Numbered from the stretch's first letter, positions 4,409 through 61,607 are shown. The stretch: 64,000 nt of DNA from Acidimicrobiales bacterium (GCA_025463925.1 JAODBK010000039.1:1-64000); one strand, 5' to 3'. Numbers and translations are program-made. The notes: a model not told the origin generated them from the letters alone.

Positions 4409-4845
4409 TGGCGGACGACGCCGACACGGTCGCGATGCTGCTCGGCCGTGAGCCCGCCGGGGCCTACGACGTCGTCGTCCGCGACACCGAAGGCCGGCCG
4501 GTCGTCATCCGCAACGACCCGCTGCTGGTCGACGGCCGGCCGATGCCGACGCGGTACTGGCTCGTGGCCGGCGACGTTCGTGCCGCGGTCAGCCGCATCG
4601 AGGCCGCCGGTGGCGTGCGGGCCGCCGAGGCCACGGTCGACCCCGGCGAGCTGGCCGCGGCGCACGCCCGGTATGCCGCCGAGCGCGACGCCGCGCTCCC
4701 GGCGGGCCACACCGGGCCGCGTCCGAGCGGCGGTGTCGGTGGGACCGCCACCGGCGTGAAGTGCCTGCACGCGCACTACGCCTGGTTCCTCGCCGGCGGC
4801 GACGACCCCGTCGGCCGGTGGGTCGCGGAGCGCGTTCCGACATGA
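4408..4845 (+). CDS. DUF501 domain protein
   Basis: A 145-residue actinobacterial DUF501 protein of unknown function. Family features are the YDVVVRDTEGRPVVIRNDP stretch, RYWLVAGD, and a C-terminal GVKCLHAHYAWFLAGGDDPVG segment with conserved cysteine and histidines. In actinobacteria DUF501 genes usually stand directly before a Ppx/GppA phosphatase, as here (4-base ATGA overlap with the next gene), often near enolase and FtsB-like genes, which are absent. No enzymatic role should be assigned. Confidence 0.85.
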   Translation: MADDADTVAMLLGREPAGAYDVVVRDTEGRPVVIRNDPLLVDGRPMPTRYWLVAGDVRAAVSRIEAAGGVRAAEATVDPGELAAAHARYAAERDAALPAGHTGPRPSGGVGGTATGVKCLHAHYAWFLAGGDDPVGRWVAERVPT

Positions 4846-8200: not shown

Positions 8201-9062
8201 GGACGACCTGCGCCAGCTCGACGCCGAGCTGGCCGGCATCGACCACCTCGACGTCCCGGTCACACCGGCGCCGTCGGGACTGGCGCGGGTCTGGGCCCAG
8301 CTCTGGCCCAAGCTCACCGCGATCGCGCTCTTCTTCGTCATCTGGCAGGTCGTGGTGTGGACGCACTGGCGGCCCGAGTACATCCTGCCGGGCCCGCGCA
8401 AGACGTTCAGCGCGTTGGGCGACGCCATCCGCGCCGGCACGTTGCCGCGGGCCGTGGGCGTCACCATGCGCCGGGCGGCGTTGGGGTACGCGCTGGCCGT
8501 CGTGATCGGCTCGGTGCTCGGGCTCGCGGTGGCCCGCAACCGGATCCTGCGATCGGCGATCGCGTCGATGATCACCGGGCTGCAGACCATGCCGAGCATC
8601 GCGTGGTTCCCGCTGGCGATCGTGCTGTTCGGCCTGACCGAGGGGGCGATGATGTTCGTCGTCATCCTCGGCGCCGCGCCGGCGATCGCCAACGGCGTGA
8701 TCTCCGGCGTCGACCACATCCCCCCGCTGCTCCTGCGGGCCGGCCGCGTCCTCGGCGCGCGCGGTCTGGCGGCGTACCGCCACGTCATCCTGCCGGCGGC
8801 GCTCCCGGGCTTCGTCGCCGGGCTCAAGCAGGGATGGGCGTTCGCCTGGCGCAGCCTCATGGCCGGCGAGCTCATCGTGATCATCGCCAAGCGACCGTCG
8901 CTCGGTCAGCAACTCGAGTTCACGCGAGGCAACCAGGACTACCCCGGCCTGGTGGCGACGATGTTGGTGATCCTCGTCATCGGGATCGTGATCGACAGCG
9001 TCTTGTTCGGGCGGATCGAGCGCGTCATCCGGGGCCGGTGGGGCCTGGTGGACGGGGCCTGA
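8178..9062 (+). CDS. ABC transporter permease (SsuC/TauC-like)
   Basis: A 294-residue inner-membrane permease with about six spans and a BPD_transp_1 domain. The EAA loop that contacts the ATPase is visible as GARGLAAYRHVILPAALPGF. The ATG at 8178 overlaps the ATPase gene by 23 bases and has GGAGG at 8164. The frame extends upstream but only as a shadow of the ATPase gene. Third component of the importer. Confidence 0.9.
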   Translation: MPTIPRPEDDLRQLDAELAGIDHLDVPVTPAPSGLARVWAQLWPKLTAIALFFVIWQVVVWTHWRPEYILPGPRKTFSALGDAIRAGTLPRAVGVTMRRAALGYALAVVIGSVLGLAVARNRILRSAIASMITGLQTMPSIAWFPLAIVLFGLTEGAMMFVVILGAAPAIANGVISGVDHIPPLLLRAGRVLGARGLAAYRHVILPAALPGFVAGLKQGWAFAWRSLMAGELIVIIAKRPSLGQQLEFTRGNQDYPGLVATMLVILVIGIVIDSVLFGRIERVIRGRWGLVDGA

Positions 9063-9558: not shown

Positions 9559-9996
9559 TCAGTCCTCGATGTAGCCGGGGTCGGGATCGTTGTTGATCCC
9601 GCCGGGCCGCCGGGTGATGCGCATGGCCGCCTCCTCCGCCGAGAGGGTGTCCTCCAGCAGCGCGTCCTCGTCGGCGATCAACTCCGGCTCGTCGTCGAAG
9701 AAGCCCTCCTCGGCGCCCGGTTCGTAGAGCTGGCGGGGCGTGTGCCGGACGCCCCGGCCGATGCGCCACTCGTCCGGCTCCTCTTCCCGCAGGCGGTCGT
9801 CGAGCGTCTCGCCCCGCAGCTGCTCCGACGCGGTGACGCCGTACGCGGTGGACGCGAGCGGCGTCTCGGCCGGCGGGACCTCGCCGACGCCGTCGTCCCC
9901 GGTCTCGAGCAGGCCGGCCGGCACCTCCTCGGTCGCCGGCACGCCGTCGTCGACCGTGTCGGGCGACGGCCTGGTCGGCCGCTCGTCATCAGCCAT
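9559..9996 (-). CDS. DUF5709 domain protein
   Basis: A 145-residue, strongly acidic protein matching actinobacterial DUF5709, with ETLDDRLREEEPD as the core and repeats of glutamate- and aspartate-rich segments. No signal peptide, membrane span or catalytic motif is seen; probably largely disordered. It converges on the Rrf2 gene with only 3 bases between stops. Function unknown. Confidence 0.8.
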   Translation of the reverse strand: MADDERPTRPSPDTVDDGVPATEEVPAGLLETGDDGVGEVPPAETPLASTAYGVTASEQLRGETLDDRLREEEPDEWRIGRGVRHTPRQLYEPGAEEGFFDDEPELIADEDALLEDTLSAEEAAMRITRRPGGINNDPDPGYIED

Positions 9997-31483: not shown

Positions 31484-31567
31484 AAGCCGTCAGGACGAAA
31501 ACGCAAACCCATCGCAAGGTGGGGACGCAAAGTCACCGGGGCCCACCGCGGGTCGGCCGGACTACCG
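31484..31567 (+). promoter_or_regulatory. Cyclic di-GMP-I riboswitch (GEMM)
   Basis: The core matches the GEMM consensus: GCAAACCCATCGCAAGG (31502-31518), a GNAA-capped P2 stem, then GGGGACGCAAAGTCACCGGG (31520-31539), and a closing CCGGACTACCGA. These are the joined segments around the ligand in the class I c-di-GMP aptamer. It lies 22 bases before the ATG of a secreted protein, so c-di-GMP should switch that gene and perhaps the whole downstream operon. ON or OFF type cannot be read: no clear terminator follows, so control may be at translation. Confidence 0.82.
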
Positions 31568-31589
31568 AACCTCGAGGAGCATCAACATC

Positions 31590-31988
31590 ATGAACCTCAC
31601 CAAACGCGCCAAGATCATGGTCGGCGCGGTTGCCGTCGTCGGCGCCCTCGCCGCCGCCGGGACCGCCTTCACCAGCAGCGGGATCACCAACAACGCCGGT
31701 TCCACGCAGTTCGTCGGCGGGACCGTCAGCCAGAGCGTGACCGGCGCCACGCTCTCGAGCGTGGCCTACACCTTCGGAGACGCGCCGGCCAACACGGCCG
31801 TCCACTCGGCTCTGCTGACCTTCGCTGACAGCAACGCGGACGCCAAGACCCCGACGGTGGCGTTCACCGGCGGCAACGCGGTCGCGTTCACCTGCACCGC
31901 CATCGAGGCGACCGGTCACACCTCGACCTGCACAACCGCAGGCGCCGACCGGACAGGCGTCACAAGCATCGCCATCACCGTCGCCTAG
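31590..31988 (+). CDS. Secreted TasA/CalY-like protein with SipW-type signal peptide
   Basis: A 132-residue exported protein. Lysine-rich start MNLTKRAKIM, a hydrophobic segment VGAVAVVGALAAAGTAF, then TSSGITNNAGSTQFVGGTVS, the look of SipW-processed matrix proteins. The mature part (about 100 residues) is threonine-, serine- and alanine-rich with predicted beta strands and one cysteine pair (FTCTAIEATGHTSTC) that may form a disulfide. ATG 31590 has GAGGAG at 31573-31578; a frame upstream overlaps the riboswitch and is not used. The cognate peptidase gene lies downstream past the inserted element. Confidence 0.75.
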   Translation: MNLTKRAKIMVGAVAVVGALAAAGTAFTSSGITNNAGSTQFVGGTVSQSVTGATLSSVAYTFGDAPANTAVHSALLTFADSNADAKTPTVAFTGGNAVAFTCTAIEATGHTSTCTTAGADRTGVTSIAITVA

Positions 31989-32051
31989 TCGACACAGGTC
32001 GCGGTGGCCCGTCTCGTCAGGAGCGGGCCACCGCGTCTGGAACAGGAAGCC

Positions 32052-32059
32052 ACTTGAAC
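32052..32059 (+). repeat. Target site duplication, left copy
   Basis: ACTTGAAC directly before the left inverted repeat, identical to 33540-33547. Eight bases is the usual duplication made by IS1595-family elements. Confidence 0.9.
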
Positions 32060-32083
32060 GGGGATGTGTGACTTGACACACAC
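32060..32083 (+). repeat. Left terminal inverted repeat of the IS1595-like element
   Basis: Twenty-four bases beginning GGGGATGTGTGACTTG and ending in a run of CA dinucleotides; the exact reverse complement of 33516-33539. Confidence 0.92.
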
Positions 32084-32173
32084 AAGCTGACCTGGGACTA
32101 TGAAGTCGCGGAGAAGCTGAGCGTTACCAAGCTTGCGAACCTCGTACAGACCGAGGGTGACGCGTACGCCTTC

Positions 32174-32551
32174 ATGGAGAAGCTGCGTTGGGGCTACGGC
32201 GAGCCGGTCTGCCCGCATTGCGCCAACATCGGGGCCTACTTCATCAAGCCCCGTAACGGCGAGACCCGCCAGACCAACCGCGGCTCAGGAACTCAGCGCC
32301 GGTTGTGGACCTGCAAGGCGTGCCGCAAGCAGTTCACCGTGCTCGTCGGGACCATCTTCCACGGCAGCCACATCGCGGTGCGGACCTGGCTGTTGGTGCT
32401 GTTCGAGATGTGCTCGAACAAGAACGGCATCGCGGCCCGTGAGATCGAGCGGAAGTACGGCCTGACCCCAAAGTCGGCCTGGTTCATGACGCAGCGCATC
32501 CGCGAGGGCATGAAGCGCGACCCACTCGCCGGGATGCTGGCCGTCTGTTGA
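32174..32551 (+). pseudogene. IS1595 family transposase, N-terminal part only
   Basis: A 125-residue product with the zinc ribbon PVCPHCANIG ... WTCKACRKQF and the helix-turn-helix LFEMCSNKNGIAAREIERK, ending RIREGMKRDPLAGMLAVC. The ISXO2/IS1595 DDE catalytic domain that should follow is missing; no piece of it was found in the rest of the element. The frame is open back to 32072 and the residues there (LSVTKLANLVQTEGDAYAF) look genuine, so the real protein may begin upstream at a non-standard codon. Truncated, so it should not catalyse transposition. Confidence 0.8.
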
Positions 32552-32564
32552 CGGCGAAGAAGCA

Positions 32565-32741
32565 ATGATGAAATGGCTAATCGAACGAGAGGCGACTCGC
32601 CCGCCCAACGAACTCCATGTTCGAGGCAAGAGGTACGAAGCGAAGGGGCCAAACGGCGAGACCATTCACTACCTCGTCACGATGTTCCCGCCGAACGGCG
32701 ACCCAATCGGGCACATCTTCATTACGGAGATTGAGCCATGA
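32565..32741 (+). CDS. Small passenger protein A
   Basis: A 58-residue frame (MMKWLIERE at the start, ETIHYLVTMFPPNGDPIGHI near the end) directly after the truncated transposase. Codon use and strand-like ending look protein-coding, but I do not know the family and no good ribosome site is seen. It overlaps the next ORF by 4 bases (ATGA). Confidence 0.5.
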   Translation: MMKWLIEREATRPPNELHVRGKRYEAKGPNGETIHYLVTMFPPNGDPIGHIFITEIEP

Positions 32742-32890
32742 GCGCTGAGAAACCATCCGACCAAGGCCATCACCCGACGCCCGAGGAACGGGACGAGCCG
32801 GTCGCCATCCCGCTCGATTTCACCGAAGCGGTAGCGGGCCTCCTGGCCGTCGACCCCGACGACGAACCAACCGAGGACGCCGAGAAGTAA
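32738..32890 (+). CDS. Small acidic passenger protein B
   Basis: A 50-residue acidic frame with the pattern EPVAIPLDFTEAVAGLLAVD. Similar short DFxxAxxGLL proteins often accompany transposases of this type, function unknown. GGAG at 32724-32727 supports the start, which is coupled to passenger A. Confidence 0.5.
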   Translation: MSAEKPSDQGHHPTPEERDEPVAIPLDFTEAVAGLLAVDPDDEPTEDAEK

Positions 32891-32895
32891 GAGGC

Positions 32896-33078
32896 GTGCC
32901 CCGTTGGAGGCGACCAGTCGACCCGTGGGCTGACGACGCTGAGGAAGCGGCGGTCGTCGCTCGGGTCGCAGCCTCAATCGCTGGCGTATGGATCGTGATC
33001 GTCCTCTTGCTGGTTGCCGTTGCCGTCGTTGCTGCCATCCTGATTGCGCCGATCGGGTGGATGTTCAGCGGGTTTTGA
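32896..33078 (+). CDS. Small passenger membrane protein C
   Basis: A 60-residue frame with a GTG start. An acidic and tryptophan-containing head is followed by one hydrophobic span (SIAGVWIVIVLLLVAVAVVA) and a short tail, so a single-pass membrane protein. It is coupled to the excisionase-like frame by a TTGA overlap at 33075-33078. Family unknown. Confidence 0.45.
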   Translation: MPRWRRPVDPWADDAEEAAVVARVAASIAGVWIVIVLLLVAVAVVAAILIAPIGWMFSGF

Positions 33079-33282
33079 CCGAAACCCTCACAGCCACCGC
33101 CGCTGCCCGCATCCTGGCCGTGACCATGAAGACGATGCTGGGGCTGATCGAGGCCGGCGATCTACCGGCCACCCGCGCCGGCCGTCACTGGCGGGTCGAC
33201 CCCGCCGACCTGGCCCGCCTACATCGACTCGCTACGGATCGAGCCCAGCCAACTCGCGCACCTGCGGAGGAAGCGGGGCTAG
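33075..33282 (+). pseudogene. Excisionase/MerR-like helix-turn-helix gene, frameshifted
   Basis: TTG start overlapping passenger C. The first 40 codons give a typical excisionase-type winged helix (TATAAARILAVTMKTMLGL then EAGDLPATRAGRHWRVD). After ADLA the frame drifts into unlike sequence, whereas a one-base shift gives YIDSLRIEPSQLAHLRRKRG and a TAG at 33280-33282, which continues the family pattern. A one-base insertion near 33217 would explain this. The unshifted frame runs to 33470. Confidence 0.6.
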
Positions 33283-33330
33283 CGCGGATGCACCATGTTC
33301 GGGTGGCTCGACCAGGTCGATACCTAGAAC

Positions 33331-33516
33331 ATGCCTGCAACCACGATGCGAAGCCTCAGCAACATCCACGAACTCGAAATGGTCCGGGGCAAGCTGGATC
33401 GAATGGCCGCCCGCCGTTGCGACGGGGGATGGCAGCCCGCGGACTCAGCGGTCTACGAAGCCTTGGGTGACCACGAGCGGAAGCTGTTGGGCATGACCGA
33501 CGCCTTCCCTACCTAG
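33331..33516 (+). CDS. Small passenger protein D
   Basis: A 61-residue frame whose stop ends exactly at the first base of the right inverted repeat. Sequence such as IHELEMVRGKLDRMAARR suggests a short helical hairpin. No strong ribosome site. Low confidence that it is expressed. Confidence 0.35.
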   Translation: MPATTMRSLSNIHELEMVRGKLDRMAARRCDGGWQPADSAVYEALGDHERKLLGMTDAFPT

Positions 33517-33539
33517 TGTGTGTCAAGTCACACATCCCC
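33516..33539 (-). repeat. Right terminal inverted repeat of the IS1595-like element
   Basis: Exact reverse complement of 32060-32083, followed at once by the second ACTTGAAC copy. Confidence 0.92.
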
Positions 33540-33547
33540 ACTTGAAC
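33540..33547 (+). repeat. Target site duplication, right copy
   Basis: ACTTGAAC, identical to 32052-32059; marks the former intact sequence between the secreted-protein and peptidase genes. Confidence 0.9.
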
Positions 33548-33559
33548 TCACCTTCGACC

Positions 33560-35026
33560 ATGCACCGATCCCTGCGCCGTCTCGCGGCTGGTGGCCTCAT
33601 CGCGCTGATCGCCATGGTCACGGTGGCGATCGGATCCGGACGCGTCGCCTACGAGGTGACCAACGGCGTCAGCATGAGGCCGACCTACCGCACCGGAGAT
33701 CTGGTCGTGGTCGCCCGAGCCAGCGCCTACCGCCACGGTCAGATCGTCGCCTACCGCGCCGGCCAGCACGTGGTCTTGCACCGCATCATTGGCGGCGACG
33801 CCACCGGGTTCGTGATGAAGGGCGACAGCAACCAGTCCATCGACCCGACCCGGCCGACCGCCAAGCAGCTGATCGGCCGGGCCGTCCTGCACCTTCCCAA
33901 GTTCGGTGCCGCGCTGCGATCGCCGATCAGCCGCGGCCTGCTCGTCGTGGTCGTCCTCGCCCTGTTCGGAGTCCTCATGAGGAGCCCCAATGCCAAGCCG
34001 GCTGGCGTTCACCCGTCCGCAAGACGCACCCGTCGAGCGCCCACGCTCTGGAAGAGCCTGGCCGCTCTCGATGTCCTCGTGCTTGTCGCCCTCGGCATGA
34101 CGTTTGTGCTCGCTCCGCATCCCGTGTCCCCAGTTGGCGGGCCGACCCAGACCGGTGCGTTGAGCTACCACGCCGCCGTTCCGATCAGCGACACCTATCC
34201 GACCGGCACGATCAGCACGGGCGACCCCGTGTTCGTCAAACTGGTGCAGGCTCTCGGCGTCTCCTTCCATTACGCCACCGATACCCCACCAGGGTCCGTG
34301 CGTGGAACAGCGCGACTTGACGCGGCCGTGTCGACAGTGAGCGGATGGCACACGACCCTGCCGATGGTGGCCCCCACTGCGCTGGTGGGCGGCGCCGCTG
34401 ACATGAATGGCACCCTCGAGCTGGCCCGCATCCAGGCGCTGGCCACCAGCGTCGAGAAGGCGACCGGACTCGGCTTCGGTACTCTGGATGTCGACGTCAC
34501 CGCCTCGGTCGATGTCAGCTTCAACGGAGCCAAGCCCCTGCTCTACAGCTCCCACCTACCGCTTCAGCTCTCGACATTGGAACTGACCTTGTCCGGTGTG
34601 AAGCCCAGCCCGTCTCCGCACGGGCCGGCCGTCACCTCCACCGTCGCACTCGACCCGCCCTCATCCCTCGCGCGGCACCAGCCCGGGACCGTGCCGCAGC
34701 AGATCCGCCTCGGCCTCCTGGCCGCGCTGATCCTGTGCGTGGGGACGACCGTGGTGATGTGGCCGCCGTCGGCCGTCAGTGACGACGACCGCGCCGGCGG
34801 AGGGGCGCAGCGGGTTCGAGCAGTCGGCCTCCAACGGTCCAACACCACCCGCGTCCAGCTCGCGGACCGCGCCGCACTCGAACGACTCGCCGCCCGCGTC
34901 GGCTGTCCGATCGTGGACGTCGACGATGGCTTGTCGGCGGTCGTGACCGCCGACAGCCTCTACTGGGTGGCGCCGCAAGCCCTTCCGGCCGAGTCAGGCG
35001 CCCCTGTACCGGCCACGGCGGCCTGA
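33560..35026 (+). CDS. SipW-type signal peptidase I (S26B) with DUF5305-like domain
   Basis: A 488-residue membrane protein. ATG 33560 lies 12 bases past the target duplication; upstream in-frame codons fall inside the inserted element. An N-terminal span (GGLIALIAMVTVAI) precedes the S26B peptidase: nucleophile Ser38 in NGVSMRPTY, His74 in VVLHRIIGG replacing the bacterial lysine as in ER-type/SipW enzymes, and KGDSN at 87-91. Spans near 125 and 165 flank a linker, then about residues 190-385 resemble DUF5305, then a final span (LGLLAALILCVGTTVVMWP) and a cytoplasmic tail. It should cleave the TasA/CalY-like protein upstream. Its stop overlaps the EAL gene start (TGATG). Confidence 0.8.
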   Translation: MHRSLRRLAAGGLIALIAMVTVAIGSGRVAYEVTNGVSMRPTYRTGDLVVVARASAYRHGQIVAYRAGQHVVLHRIIGGDATGFVMKGDSNQSIDPTRPTAKQLIGRAVLHLPKFGAALRSPISRGLLVVVVLALFGVLMRSPNAKPAGVHPSARRTRRAPTLWKSLAALDVLVLVALGMTFVLAPHPVSPVGGPTQTGALSYHAAVPISDTYPTGTISTGDPVFVKLVQALGVSFHYATDTPPGSVRGTARLDAAVSTVSGWHTTLPMVAPTALVGGAADMNGTLELARIQALATSVEKATGLGFGTLDVDVTASVDVSFNGAKPLLYSSHLPLQLSTLELTLSGVKPSPSPHGPAVTSTVALDPPSSLARHQPGTVPQQIRLGLLAALILCVGTTVVMWPPSAVSDDDRAGGGAQRVRAVGLQRSNTTRVQLADRAALERLAARVGCPIVDVDDGLSAVVTADSLYWVAPQALPAESGAPVPATAA

Positions 35027-37284
35027 TGGTGTCCATCGCACCGTCGGCGCGCTCTTCGGCACCGGATCGACTCGGAGTGCCCGATCTCGCACTGGGTTGT
35101 CCGGACTTCGAGTTGATCGCCGAGTCGATCCCCCACATCGTGTGGCTGGCTTCGCCCGACGGAGCCACGACCTACTTCAACCGCCGGGGCGTCGACTACA
35201 CCGGGCGTCGGCCCGAGGCGAACTACGACTGGGGCTGGGTCAACCTCGTCCACCCCGACGACGCCGAGCGGGCCCGGCTGGGCTGGGAGCACGCGATCGA
35301 AACGGAGACCCCGTACGTGCTCGAGTACCGCATACGCCGCTTCGACGGAGCCTTCCGGTTGCATTGCTTCCGCGCCCTGCCGATGCGCGACGCCGCCGGC
35401 GGGATCACCATCTGGATCGGCACCGCCACCGACATCGACGACAACAGGCAACTGGAGCTGTCGCTGCGCAGCTCGGAGCAGGAGGCCATCCAAACATTGA
35501 CGGTCCTGCAGCAGATCGAGTCGGCCGCTCCGTGGGGCTTCGGCTTCGTCGATCGGGACTTCCGCATCCTTCGCATCAACGAGAGCCTCGCTCGGATCAG
35601 CGGCACCTCGGTCGACGAGCAACTCGGTCGGACCGTGGCTGAGCTGCTGCCGCCTGCCATCTGGTCCCAGATCGAAGACGCCTACCACCGGGCGCTTGCC
35701 GGGGACGCGGTCGTCAACCTCGAGGTCAGCGGACCAAGTGCATCGGAGCCGGGCAGGACCCTTCATTGGTTGACGAGCTATCACCCCGTTCGGGTGGACG
35801 GCGAGATCATCGGCGTCAGCAACCTCATCGTCGACATCACCGAGCGCAAGGAGGACGGGGAGTTCCGCGCCGCCGTGATGGACAACATGGCCGAGGGCCT
35901 CTACACCCTCGACGGCGACGGCATCCTCAGATACATGAACGGCGCGGCCGCAAAGATGCTCGGCTGGACCGAAGACGAGTTGCGCGGCAAGCCGATGCAC
36001 GAGGCGGTCCACTTCCAGCGAGCCGACGGCACGCTGTGCCCCGGCGAGGACTGCCAGTTGCTCAAGGTCCGAGCCGAAGGTCTCGACGTCCGGATGTCCG
36101 ACGAAACCTTCACCCGCAAGGACGGGACAACATTCCCGGTCGCCTTCTCGGCCGCGCCGGTCCGCATCGGCGGGACCATGCGAGGTGTGGTGGTCGTGTT
36201 CCGGGACACCACCGAAGAACTCGCGGTCACCGCCCAGGCATTGCGGGAGCTGGCCAAGCTCAGCTGGGTCGGACGCATCCGCGACGCCATCGACCAAGGC
36301 CGCCTCGTCCTTTACTCCCAGCCGATCGTGCCCCTCGGCGAGGGTGAGCCGAGTGAAGAACTGCTGCTGCGGATGATCGGCCCATCAGGCAACGTGATCC
36401 TGCCCGGCAGCTTCCTGCCGGTCGCCGAGAAGTACGGGCTCATCGGTGAGATCGACCATTGGGTCATCGCCGAAGCGATCCGCCTCGCCGCCGCCGGCCG
36501 TCGGGTGGAAGTGAACCTGTCCGCCATCTCGATCAACACGCTCGACATGCTCACCTTCATCGAGCGCAACATCCGCGAGACCGGCGCCGACCCGGGCAAC
36601 ATCGTGTTCGAGATCACCGAGACCGCCCTCATGCAAGACATCGACGCGGGCGCCTCCTTCGCCCGAGGACTGGCGGAGCTCGGCTGCCGATTCGCGCTGG
36701 ACGACTTCGGCACCGGTTTCGGGAGCTTCACCTACCTGAAGAGGCTTCCCGTTGACTATCTCAAGATCGACATCGAGTTCGTCCGTGACCTGACCACCAA
36801 CCCCGCCAACCGCCACCTCGTGCGGGCCATCGTCTCCCTCGCCCAGGCTTTCGGAGTGCGGACGATCGCCGAGGGAGTCGAAGACGAAGACACCCTCCGG
36901 TTGCTGGCCGAGGAGCACGTCGACTATGCGCAAGGTTTCCACCTCGGGCGACCCGTCCCGGCCGACCCCCGTCTGGGGCCGTCCCGCATGGAGTTCCCCG
37001 GCCTGAGCATCGACACCGCCACCCGCGAGGTCGTCAGTGCCGGTCGAGTGGTGGAGTTCACCAGCCGCGAGTTCGACCTCCTGGCCCAGCTCGCCTCTTC
37101 ACCGCGGCATGTCTTTTCTCGCGACCAGCTCCTCCGTAGCGTCTGGCACTCCCAGTCCGACTGGCAGAGCGCCAAAACTGTCAACGAGCACGTCCGCCGC
37201 ATCCGTCACAAGATCGAGCCCGACCCCGGGAAACCCCGCTGGATCAAGACCGTCGCCCGAGCCGGCTACCGGTTCGAGGCTTGA
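35026..37284 (+). CDS. PAS-PAS-PAS-EAL c-di-GMP phosphodiesterase with OmpR-type DNA-binding domain
   Basis: A 752-residue cytoplasmic protein. Three PAS domains (about 28-140, 155-275, 282-400) precede an EAL domain (about 410-645) and a C-terminal winged helix (655-750; TSREFDLLAQLASSPRHVFS, TVNEHVRRIRHKIEP, WIKTVARAGYRF). EAL residues needed for hydrolysis are present: ELLLRM, NLSAIS, FEITET, LDDFGTGFGSFTYLKR, LKIDIEF, AEGVED and AQGF. So it probably degrades c-di-GMP and also binds DNA, with activity set by the PAS ligands. No response-regulator receiver is present. Start overlaps the peptidase stop by one base, placing it in the riboswitch operon. Confidence 0.87.
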   Translation: MVSIAPSARSSAPDRLGVPDLALGCPDFELIAESIPHIVWLASPDGATTYFNRRGVDYTGRRPEANYDWGWVNLVHPDDAERARLGWEHAIETETPYVLEYRIRRFDGAFRLHCFRALPMRDAAGGITIWIGTATDIDDNRQLELSLRSSEQEAIQTLTVLQQIESAAPWGFGFVDRDFRILRINESLARISGTSVDEQLGRTVAELLPPAIWSQIEDAYHRALAGDAVVNLEVSGPSASEPGRTLHWLTSYHPVRVDGEIIGVSNLIVDITERKEDGEFRAAVMDNMAEGLYTLDGDGILRYMNGAAAKMLGWTEDELRGKPMHEAVHFQRADGTLCPGEDCQLLKVRAEGLDVRMSDETFTRKDGTTFPVAFSAAPVRIGGTMRGVVVVFRDTTEELAVTAQALRELAKLSWVGRIRDAIDQGRLVLYSQPIVPLGEGEPSEELLLRMIGPSGNVILPGSFLPVAEKYGLIGEIDHWVIAEAIRLAAAGRRVEVNLSAISINTLDMLTFIERNIRETGADPGNIVFEITETALMQDIDAGASFARGLAELGCRFALDDFGTGFGSFTYLKRLPVDYLKIDIEFVRDLTTNPANRHLVRAIVSLAQAFGVRTIAEGVEDEDTLRLLAEEHVDYAQGFHLGRPVPADPRLGPSRMEFPGLSIDTATREVVSAGRVVEFTSREFDLLAQLASSPRHVFSRDQLLRSVWHSQSDWQSAKTVNEHVRRIRHKIEPDPGKPRWIKTVARAGYRFEA

Positions 37285-40314: not shown

Positions 40315-40367
40315 CTCACGTGCCGTCGCCGACGGTCGATAGGAAGGGCGGCGAGAGGACGTCCTTC

Positions 40368-42404
40368 ATGGCTGTGAGAGGCCGCCGGCGGTGGTCGGCC
40401 TGCCTGGGTGTCGCGGTGCTGACCGTGGCCGGATGGATCGCGCTCGGCCTGACCGTGCACCGCGGACCGGTGGACCTCGGCTCGCCCGGGCTCTGGGTCT
40501 ATGGGTCGCTGGTCCTCCTCGGTGAGGTCCTCCTGGCCAGCGCGCCGACGCATCAGTCGGCCATCAACACCTCGACGGTGTTCGCGCTGGCGCTGCTCCT
40601 CCGGGCCGGCGCGCCGAGCGCCGTGCTGGCGTTGGCCACGGCCTCCCTCATCGCCAACTTCGTCATCCGGCGGTCGCTCGTCAGGGCGGTCACCACGGTC
40701 GCCGTCTACTCCCTGGCGCTGATCGCGGCGGGCGCCACCATGCAGGTGCTGGCCCACGGGTCGGTGTGGACCGGCGTCGACCGATTCCGCGTCGGGTCGC
40801 TTCCGGCGATCGCAGGGGTCGGCCTCATCTTCGTGTTCGTCGGCGTCTCGCTCGACGGGCTGGTCGATGCGTTGCTCCACGACGCGCCGATGCTCGCCGG
40901 GCTCCAGCCGTTCTTCGGCGTCGAGGCGATCGCCGCCATCGCGGTGATGGCGCTGGCCCCGGTGGTCGACGTGGCCGCCAAGACGAGTCTGGCGCTGCCA
41001 CCGTTGCTCGTGCTGCCGCTCATCGCCGTCCAGCGGACCGCCGCGGTGTCACGCGCCAAGGAGCACCAGGCGCTGCACGACGTGCTGACCGGGTTGCCCA
41101 ACCGCGCGCTGTTTCGCGACCGGATGCACCAGGCGATCGCGGAGGCCCGCCGCAGTCACCGCCTGATCGCGGTGATGGTGATCGACCTCGATCACTTCAA
41201 GGAGGTGAACGACACCCTTGGCCACCACGTCGGCGACCTCTTGCTCGCGCAAGTGGGACCCCGCCTGGCCGGGTGCCTCCGGGAGTCGGACACCGTGGCC
41301 CGGCTCGGCGGCGACGAGTTCGGCATCGTCCTGCCGGCGCTGCTCGACTCCGAGACCGCGCCCAAGGTCGCGGCCAAGCTGCTGCGCGCCCTCGACCAGC
41401 CCTTCATGGTGCACGGGCTCGAGCTCGACGTCGGCGCCAGCATCGGCGTGACGCTGTTCCCCGAGCACGGCGAGGATCCTGACGCCCTCCTGCAGCGCGC
41501 CGACGTCGCGATGTACCAGGCCAAGCAGCAGACCGGCGGTTTCGTGGTCTACGCCCTCGACCGCGACCCGCACAGCGTCGGCCGCCTCGCGATGTTGACC
41601 GACCTGCGGCGCGCGGTGGAGGAGGGGCAGCTCACGCTCTTCTACCAACCGAAGGCCGACCTGCGGACCGGCCAGGTGATCGGTGTCGAGGCCTTGCTGC
41701 GTTGGCGCCACCCGCAACGCGGCCTCATCCAGCCTGGCGACTTCATCCCGCTGGCCGAGCGGACCGGCCTCATCCAGCCCATCGCGCTGTGGGTGCTGAA
41801 CGAGGCGCTGGCCCAGACGAACCTGTGGCGCCACGAGGGGCTGGCGCTGTCGATGGCCGTCAACCTGTCGGTGCGCAACGTGCACGACTTCGCGATCACC
41901 GAGGACCTGGCCACGCTGCTCGAGCGGTGGGAGGTGCCGGCCCACTTGCTGCAGCTCGAGGTCACCGAGAGCACGATCATGCACGACCCTGCAAACGCGA
42001 TGGCGGTGCTCACGACGCTCGACGGCATGGGTCTGCGGCTGGCCATCGACGACTTCGGCACCGGGTACTCGTCACTCGCGTACTTGAAGCGGCTGCCGGT
42101 ATCGGAGCTCAAGATCGACAAGTCGTTCGTGATCGCGATGACGACCGACGAGAGCGACGCCGTGATCGTGCGGTCGACGATCGAGCTGGCTCGCAACCTC
42201 GGCCTGCGGGTGGTCGCCGAGGGCGTCGAGACGGCCGAGGCCTGGAACCAGCTCAACGCGCTGCGCTGCGACGTCGCCCAGGGCTTCTACCTCAGCCCGG
42301 CGGTGCCGGCCCAGGCGCTCACCGACTGGATGCACCGTGAACGCCGCCCTGAGCTTTGGCTGCCGGGGCGCAACGGTTCCCCCGCTAGCGTTGTGGAGGA
42401 ATGA
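40368..42404 (+). CDS. Membrane GGDEF-EAL protein
   Basis: A 678-residue protein. ATG 40368 (GAGAGG upstream) was preferred to GTG 40320. Residues 5-225 hold about six membrane spans. GGDEF domain: RLGGDEFGIVLP intact, with an RxxD inhibitory site (RESD) at the right distance. EAL domain: EALLRWRHPQ, NLSVRN, LEVTEST, IDDFGTGYSSLAYLKR, LKIDKSF, AEGVET, AQGFYLSP. Both halves keep catalytic residues, so it may make and break c-di-GMP. It would feed the pool read by the riboswitch at 31484. Its stop overlaps the queD start (ATGA). Confidence 0.87.
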   Translation: MAVRGRRRWSACLGVAVLTVAGWIALGLTVHRGPVDLGSPGLWVYGSLVLLGEVLLASAPTHQSAINTSTVFALALLLRAGAPSAVLALATASLIANFVIRRSLVRAVTTVAVYSLALIAAGATMQVLAHGSVWTGVDRFRVGSLPAIAGVGLIFVFVGVSLDGLVDALLHDAPMLAGLQPFFGVEAIAAIAVMALAPVVDVAAKTSLALPPLLVLPLIAVQRTAAVSRAKEHQALHDVLTGLPNRALFRDRMHQAIAEARRSHRLIAVMVIDLDHFKEVNDTLGHHVGDLLLAQVGPRLAGCLRESDTVARLGGDEFGIVLPALLDSETAPKVAAKLLRALDQPFMVHGLELDVGASIGVTLFPEHGEDPDALLQRADVAMYQAKQQTGGFVVYALDRDPHSVGRLAMLTDLRRAVEEGQLTLFYQPKADLRTGQVIGVEALLRWRHPQRGLIQPGDFIPLAERTGLIQPIALWVLNEALAQTNLWRHEGLALSMAVNLSVRNVHDFAITEDLATLLERWEVPAHLLQLEVTESTIMHDPANAMAVLTTLDGMGLRLAIDDFGTGYSSLAYLKRLPVSELKIDKSFVIAMTTDESDAVIVRSTIELARNLGLRVVAEGVETAEAWNQLNALRCDVAQGFYLSPAVPAQALTDWMHRERRPELWLPGRNGSPASVVEE

Positions 42405-59945: not shown

Positions 59946-61607
59946 TCATGGGTCCGGCACCTCGTACAAGAGCTCGCCGTCGAACGTGCCGAGCAGCCGA
60001 AGGGGCGCCGCAGTGGCCGGATCGCGGAGCGGCTGCCACGGGCTCCCGGGCGGGAGCGAGCGGACGACGACGAACCGCACTCCGATGCGTCGCAGATAGC
60101 CGAGGCCCGGCTCACCGGGCAGTGATCGCACCAGCTCGGTCATGCGGAAGTAGGACGGCGGGAAGTAGCCCGAGTACCCGTTGGGCGTTGGTCGATGGTG
60201 GGCGGTCGTGCGGTACACCGCGTCGGTCTGGTCGAGCAGCGAGAGGTACGGAACGCTGATCCCGGGGACGTCGACCGGGAGGTACAGCACGCCACCGCGC
60301 TCGCGGCGACGGGCGAGCGCGACGTCGACTGGCCGCCGCCGCACGTCGGTGAGCGTCCCGTTCCAATTGCGGAACCCCTCGCCGACGATGGCGAGCACCG
60401 CGACGGTCGCCACGGTGACCGCGACCGCGCGTCGCGAGCGCCCCACGCGCGCGAGGGCCGCCGCGCCCATCCCGGCCAGCAGGCCCAGCCCGAGCAGGCC
60501 GATCATCCACGCCCGGCTCGTGGCGCGCAGCGCCGGTCCGCCCGGCAGCTCGAAGACCAGCCGGTAGGGCGCGAACCGGCGCCATCCGGTGTCGGCGGTT
60601 CCGATCGCTGCGACCGCGCCGACGACGGTGAGGGCGGCGCCGGTGATCGCGGCCCTCCGGTCGCGGCCGCCGGCCCGCCACCCGACGACGAGGCCGGCGA
60701 GCGCGAGCGCGAGGACGGTGACGCCCGGGAAGACCGGCGGTCGGACCACCGGCCACGTCCGCCCACCGCCGAGGAGGTGGCCCCAGATGGACAGCCGCGG
60801 GTCGGCGTGCCAGAAGTCGGCGCCCTCGAGCCGCAGGTCTGCGAGCGTCCAGCGGAAGCCGGGCAGCGCTCGGTGGCGCGCGACGTACGGGAGGGCGAGC
60901 AGCCCGACCGCGGCCACCGAGCCGGCGAGCGCGGCGGCCGCCGGGCGCCAGGCGCGGCGTCGCACGACGAGGACGACCGCGGCGGCCGCGATCGCGTAGA
61001 GGCCGGGATAGAACGACACCGAGGCCTGCCACGCGACCGCGGCGACGAGGCCGGCGACCGCGGGCCAGGGTGAGCGACCGTCGTCGACGCGGTCGACGAT
61101 CAACCAGGCGGCGAGCGCGGCCAGCGCGACGCCGGGTCGCATGACCACCTGCAGGTGGCCGGCCTCGAGGGTGCCGTACGGCCCGAACGCGAACGCCGCC
61201 GCGGTCACCGCGCCGGCGACTCGTGAACGGGTGACGACGCGCCCGAACGCGTAGGCCGCCGCCGCCGACAGTGCGAAGCCGAGCAGGATCGCGGCGTTCA
61301 GTCGACCGATGGCGCTGACGCCGAGCCACCGCAACGGCACGAGGGGCGCGGCGATGCCGATGAGCGGGTCCGAGTAGGCGAGCGTGCCGCGCTCGGGATG
61401 GAAGATGTTGGCATCGAACAGGTGGCGCGGGCTCGTCAACGCGTGCTGCACCCAGTCGATCGTCCACGCTTGGAACCGCGGATCGAACGGGTCGTGCGCG
61501 GTGTGCCCCATTCGTGCCGCCAACGGCCACGTCGTCACGATGGCGATCGCGATCCCGACGGCGACGACGGCGACGGCCTCGATGGCCGACCGGCGACGGG
61601 GCGTCAT
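59946..61607 (-). CDS. Large membrane protein, GT-C-like
   Basis: A 553-residue protein with about 11 spans and a short outside C-terminal domain. The first outside loop contains AHDPFDPRFQAWTIDWVQHA with aspartates where GT-C enzymes have catalytic acids, and FFPPSYFRMTELVRSLPGE lies in the C-terminal part. The family is not certain; position among glycan genes suggests a lipid-linked sugar transferase. ATG 61607 used; ATG 61667 adds 20 unlike residues. Confidence 0.7.
   Translation of the reverse strand: MTPRRRSAIEAVAVVAVGIAIAIVTTWPLAARMGHTAHDPFDPRFQAWTIDWVQHALTSPRHLFDANIFHPERGTLAYSDPLIGIAAPLVPLRWLGVSAIGRLNAAILLGFALSAAAAYAFGRVVTRSRVAGAVTAAAFAFGPYGTLEAGHLQVVMRPGVALAALAAWLIVDRVDDGRSPWPAVAGLVAAVAWQASVSFYPGLYAIAAAAVVLVVRRRAWRPAAAALAGSVAAVGLLALPYVARHRALPGFRWTLADLRLEGADFWHADPRLSIWGHLLGGGRTWPVVRPPVFPGVTVLALALAGLVVGWRAGGRDRRAAITGAALTVVGAVAAIGTADTGWRRFAPYRLVFELPGGPALRATSRAWMIGLLGLGLLAGMGAAALARVGRSRRAVAVTVATVAVLAIVGEGFRNWNGTLTDVRRRPVDVALARRRERGGVLYLPVDVPGISVPYLSLLDQTDAVYRTTAHHRPTPNGYSGYFPPSYFRMTELVRSLPGEPGLGYLRRIGVRFVVVRSLPPGSPWQPLRDPATAAPLRLLGTFDGELLYEVPDP

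Follow-up and report, generated by a model that had tools for sequence, protein, structure and literature searches.

A predicted c-di-GMP-controlled operon for a small exported protein, a SipW-type peptidase and a DNA-binding EAL protein in an Acidimicrobiales genome

In the 64,000-nt stretch of Acidimicrobiales DNA analysed here (the window), positions 31484–37284 probably hold a c-di-GMP-controlled operon for a surface or matrix protein with EAL-based removal of the signal, as judged from sequence. At the sequence level, a c-di-GMP riboswitch was supported as the control of the exported protein and of the SipW-type peptidase that accompanies it, because the module was found again in this genome and elsewhere in the order, with aptamers of both classes. 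The EAL gene was present inside the operon only in the window, and an insertion element now parts the first gene from the other two.

Riboswitch, exported protein and peptidase

A c-di-GMP-I riboswitch aptamer (RF01051) was located at 31492–31569 on the plus strand. It aligned to the complete covariance model (positions 1–87) with 52.5 bits in cmscan, above the curated gathering cut-off of 35 (E = 2e-7 for the window searched against all Rfam families), which places it in this family. The sequence-only reading had recognized a GEMM-type aptamer ahead of a small exported gene and had made the idea depend on a match to RF01051; the full-length match bears out the aptamer. Binding of c-di-GMP by this aptamer is predicted.

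The aptamer ended about 5–6 nt before a putative ribosome-binding site (AGGAG, 31575–31579, plus strand), which was assigned from the leader sequence and a comparison of leaders. The distance from the aptamer to the start codon (ATG at 31590) was 20 nt in the window and 18–20 nt across the five class I loci described below. These short leaders suggest translational control of the genes behind them. With the 3' end of the aptamer in the nascent mRNA leader about 6 nt from the ribosome-binding site, ligand binding would set the expression of gene 1, most likely at translation initiation. Folding of the window leader gave a Shine-Dalgarno (SD) accessibility of 0.35 whether it was free or aptamer-folded, with no clear switch, and when the five leaders were folded with and without the aptamer, the ON/OFF answer was inconsistent between loci. 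A single leader of the five (L143) had an anti-SD inside the aptamer, which hints at ON.

It is very improbable that the aptamer ligand is another cyclic dinucleotide, for example 3',3'-cGAMP, with the EAL enzyme standing outside the loop. All five leaders had a G at the putative G20 position, which we take to be correctly placed by Vc2 numbering, and the same operon type carried class II c-di-GMP aptamers in relatives. Both points weigh against such a ligand, although the class I scaffold does include cGAMP-binding variants, and with a G20A change cGAMP becomes a ligand of a class I aptamer (PMC6274999).

Gene 1 (31590–31988, plus strand) encodes a small exported protein of 132 amino acids with a signal-like helix at the N-terminus. 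In the family alignment, the protein and its relatives were marked by an AFTASN-like segment, a GYTV-like block and two near-invariant cysteines. Searches of Pfam, NCBIfam and the PDB gave no match, whether the small protein was used by itself or together with its family (17 sequences), and the profiles PF12389 and NF046066 were matched neither by the window protein nor by its 16 relatives. When the family was compared with the TasA-type profile, the signal peptides alone aligned. The AlphaFold model (3 sequences, pLDDT 40) was all-beta after the signal helix and too poor for use. Neither the profile comparisons nor the PDB search thus gave any sign of TasA/CalY homology for the window protein. 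The sequence-only reading had called this protein TasA/CalY-like. That label is best read as a description of its position, its export and the style of its signal peptide, since the profile matches were missing and the alignment was confined to the signal peptide; the implied sequence kinship was not detectable. The family, nameless so far, is defined here.

Gene 1 was followed by a GC-rich intercistronic hairpin (32000–32035, plus strand), found as an inverted repeat and by folding, with 12-bp perfect arms and no T-run. A comparable hairpin was present in the same place at C112, L142 and L143, that is, at four of the five class I loci including the window, and the intergenic regions containing it folded at −38 to −59 kcal/mol. 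The hairpin probably keeps peptidase levels below those of the structural protein.

The second gene (33560–35026, plus strand) encodes an S26B signal peptidase that continues into a DUF5305-like part at its C-terminus. The protein scored 53.8 bits with TIGR02228, the NCBIfam archaeal/S26B model (cut-off 51.85), and Ser38 and His74 were invariant in an alignment of 16 S26B sequences. A Ser-His pair is expected for an S26B-type signal peptidase, and with the profile score it assigns the protein to S26B. The equivalog model of Bacillus SipW (NF046067) was not reached (21.9 vs 190). The DUF5305 match of the C-terminal half was weak in the window protein itself (E = 0.23) and significant in the homologues from C112, G288 and Chloroflexi. 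The structure model of the peptidase (2 sequences) had a pLDDT of 39. The constant pairing of the two genes suggests that the peptidase would process the small exported protein.

Recurrence of the module in the order

A second locus (C112) in the same genome carried the module uninterrupted: an aptamer, a gap of 18 nt, a 124-amino-acid AFTASN protein, the hairpin and an S26B-DUF5305 peptidase. It was flanked downstream by a convergent EAL gene and upstream by a divergent gene for an OmpR-type response regulator. The same core order of aptamer, exported protein and S26B peptidase was found in two further genomes (G288 and G206), and in a third (G023) a c-di-GMP-I aptamer preceded a camelysin/TasA-type protein and an S26B peptidase. 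The expectation of the sequence-only reading that all four parts would keep their order in relatives thus held for riboswitch, exported protein and peptidase at these four loci, but not for the EAL gene, which was part of the operon in the window alone. A scan of genome contigs yielded one homologous locus only, in a Chloroflexi MAG, with no riboswitch detected, and when more S26B loci were scanned sensitively with Rfam, no additional class I aptamer came up.

The association was quantified in 298 genomes of the order, the order being the kinship label carried by the genomes. Aptamers were counted if they lay on the same strand at most 3.5 kb upstream of an S26B match. This applied to 5 of 90 class I aptamers (0.040 expected under uniform placement) and to 11 of 114 class II-type aptamers (0.045 expected under uniform placement), together 16 loci against about 0.09 expected. 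The Poisson probabilities of 8e-10 (class I) and 3e-23 (class II-type) ignore kinship among the genomes and give orders of magnitude only. Since an aptamer was present at 16 of the 108 listed S26B loci, an aptamer ahead of such loci is common but not general.

Class II-type aptamers at S26B loci were found in G012, G022, G066, G158, G295, G046, G193, G017, G201, G153 and G224. The G012 aptamer was of type II-GAG (66 bits), the G022 aptamer scored 44.8 bits with RF01786 and 46.3 bits with RF03169, and G066 had a weak aptamer at one locus and one of 48.6 bits at another. At the examined loci, genes for TasA-like or other exported proteins came next; for G153 and G224, the gene caller did not resolve which gene separates the aptamer from S26B. 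In sensitive scans, class II-type aptamers appeared before three TasA/exported-protein operons (strong at L137, just under the RF01786 cut-off at L129 and weak at L126). TasA/camelysin-type proteins occupied the slot of the small protein at several class II loci and in G023. Five of the six TasA-type proteins tested matched PF12389, and among PDB proteins their profile matched the matrix protein TasA (E = 1e-4). Since aptamers of class I and of class II type both occur at S26B loci, SipW-type operons have been placed behind different riboswitch classes.

Six c-di-GMP aptamers were detected in the genome of the window (four class I, one II-GAG and one II-GCG), and each precedes a gene whose product starts with a signal-like segment. 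These products include a CAP-domain protein on C55 (the one case in which the CAP domain was checked by Pfam), one with an Ig domain on C32 and, on C14, a protein of 169 amino acids. In relatives, class I aptamers also stood before type IV pilin genes and many genes for CAP-like proteins. As other aptamers, too, lie ahead of exported-protein genes, the module appears to be one part of a wider surface protein set under the control of c-di-GMP-binding RNAs.

Several further aptamer arrangements were observed. At L036, a class I aptamer (4764–4838, plus strand) and a II-GCG aptamer (8625–8709, minus strand) point towards one another, ahead of two convergent genes for exported proteins. A II-GAG aptamer at L173 (9564–9654, minus strand) lies ahead of three genes for exported proteins, from which a regulator gene diverges. 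L071 (G016:C51) contains three tandem copies of a c-di-GMP-I aptamer and a type IV pilin gene (aptamers at contig positions 60736, 61582 and 62394, minus strand), and at L161 in G006 a c-di-GMP-I aptamer (9741–9818) lies before an exported-protein gene that is apparently frameshifted. In many leaders of CAP-like genes, for example G023:C11:18031 (L044), the aptamer is followed by a run of G, the sequence CCCTCC and an SD of GGAGG, which suggests a three-strand translational switch.

The inserted element and the EAL–winged-helix gene

An IS1595-type insertion element of 1,480 bp (32060–33539), detected in a repeat search and bounded by 27-bp inverted repeats (96%), lay between genes 1 and 2. 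It was flanked by a perfect 8-bp target-site duplication, recognized as a direct repeat (ACTTGAAC; left copy 32052–32059, right copy 33540–33547). A truncated IS1595-family transposase (32174–32551, plus strand) matched PF12760 (2e-9) and positions 2–55 of 215 in NF033547, corresponding to the zinc ribbon and the start of the catalytic domain only. The inverted repeats, the target duplication and the transposase fragment place the element in the IS1595 family, and since only a fragment of the transposase is left, the element is non-autonomous. Its terminal pattern was single in the genome assembly, with no second copy. The element also bears short ORFs beyond the transposase fragment.

The sequence-only reading had missed this element, as well as the DUF5305-like part of the peptidase and the strong hairpin after gene 1. 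It had described one operon over 31484–37284, and the order and coordinates of the parts agreed with that description. However, the element splits genes 1 and 2, so in this strain the four parts do not form one uninterrupted series, and co-transcription across the region is uncertain here. As a result of the insertion, the riboswitch would be sure to control gene 1 alone, and genes 2 and 3 would follow if transcription reads through.

A complete element with its target duplication, present in a single copy between genes 1 and 2, together with the uninterrupted paralogue at C112, might indicate a decaying operon. Gene 1 alone would then be expressed, the peptidase and EAL genes would be silent or driven by a promoter of the element, and the C112 copy would do the work. 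We consider this unlikely: the two ORFs 3' of the element, 488 and 752 codons long, run without interruption and scored as coding, so decay is not visible, and the transposase fragment is co-directional, with no terminator demonstrated in the element.

Gene 3 (35026–37284, plus strand, 752 codons) encodes a protein with the Pfam architecture PAS-PAS-PAS-EAL-winged helix. In addition to the PAS domains, EAL (PF00563, 204 bits, 3e-60) and Trans_reg_C (7e-22) were matched, the latter in line with the DNA-binding part that had been read from the sequence. All eight residues that we take to contact metal and substrate (E of ExLxR, N, E, DD, K, E and Q) were readable in the translation of the EAL domain. 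The protein is a predicted c-di-GMP phosphodiesterase with a DNA-binding domain. As described before, the peptidase and EAL ORFs (33560–35026 and 35026–37284) overlap, with the stop codon of the former and the start codon of the latter sharing the sequence TGATG. Cotranslated with the peptidase, the PAS-sensing EAL protein is predicted to be both a c-di-GMP-degrading enzyme and a DNA-binding protein. Through it, the riboswitch would sense less of its signal, and the protein would perhaps regulate the window locus or its sister. A further gene, 3 kb downstream of the operon (40320–42404), encodes a GGDEF-EAL protein whose GGDEF motif is intact.

At most homologous loci, the neighbourhood comparison revealed no EAL or GGDEF neighbours. 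The exceptions were the EAL gene at C112 and a GGDEF-EAL gene downstream of the G017 locus; GGDEF genes lay further off at G066 C26 and at the Chloroflexi locus L123. An orthologue in G016 (67% over PAS-EAL) stops before the winged helix and is encoded away from any TasA/S26B locus. Within the genome, the winged helix of the response regulator encoded divergently from C112 came closest (66%). This likeness would be accounted for if a DNA-binding domain linked to the locus had been fused to the EAL protein.

The functional unit may comprise riboswitch, exported protein and S26B peptidase, with the EAL–winged-helix gene a neighbour engaged in global regulation and no dedicated loop. We give this reading slightly less than an even chance. 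The absence of EAL genes from most homologous loci, the G016 orthologue without a winged helix and the IS element that parts the EAL gene from the riboswitch-controlled gene all point towards it, but the EAL gene overlaps the S26B gene, and at the sister locus, too, an EAL gene and a near relative of the winged helix are neighbours. The feedback loop that had been proposed from the sequence is partly supported, with an EAL gene inside the operon in the window, a convergent one at C112 and none at most other loci. With an EAL part that is not general and a winged helix akin to the C112 regulator, local c-di-GMP feedback by the EAL protein is plausible, within the preferred reading of an operon for a surface or matrix protein under c-di-GMP control.

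Comparison with known systems

The TasA matrix operon of Bacillus is under SinR-type repressors. As in the tapA-sipW-tasA operon of B. subtilis and the sipW-calY operon of B. cereus, an exported matrix protein would here be combined with a dedicated S26B peptidase, and true TasA/camelysin proteins fill the slot in relatives. Unlike in the Bacillus operons, the small protein of the window lacks detectable homology, the peptidase has a DUF5305-like extension and an EAL gene is attached. A literature search of papers available without subscription found no c-di-GMP riboswitch before either Bacillus operon and no description of such riboswitches before TasA/SipW operons in general.

In Clostridioides difficile, class I and class II c-di-GMP riboswitches set surface-protein and type IV pilus genes (PMC6200980, PMC6366702). 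The placement of both classes before surface and pilus genes is shared with the order studied here, whereas the phylum and the gene set differ, the abstracts of those papers name no TasA/SipW operon, and the short leaders of the order point to control at translation.

We suggest, tentatively and with less than even confidence, that TasA/SipW-type operons across the order have repeatedly come under various classes of c-di-GMP riboswitch, and that the operon of the window, with its own DNA-binding phosphodiesterase, forms a local sense-and-erase loop. If true, this would constitute a direct RNA-level route from c-di-GMP to the extracellular matrix in a little-studied group, and the leaders, the peptidase and the phosphodiesterase are testable genes.

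The DNA-binding domain of PdeL from Escherichia coli is of the LuxR type. Like this trigger phosphodiesterase (PMC5052742), the window protein has a DNA-binding domain in the same chain as the EAL domain (Trans_reg_C, 7e-22). Unlike PdeL, it combines a C-terminal OmpR-type winged helix with three PAS domains, and its gene sits in an operon whose riboswitch is predicted to read the same molecule.
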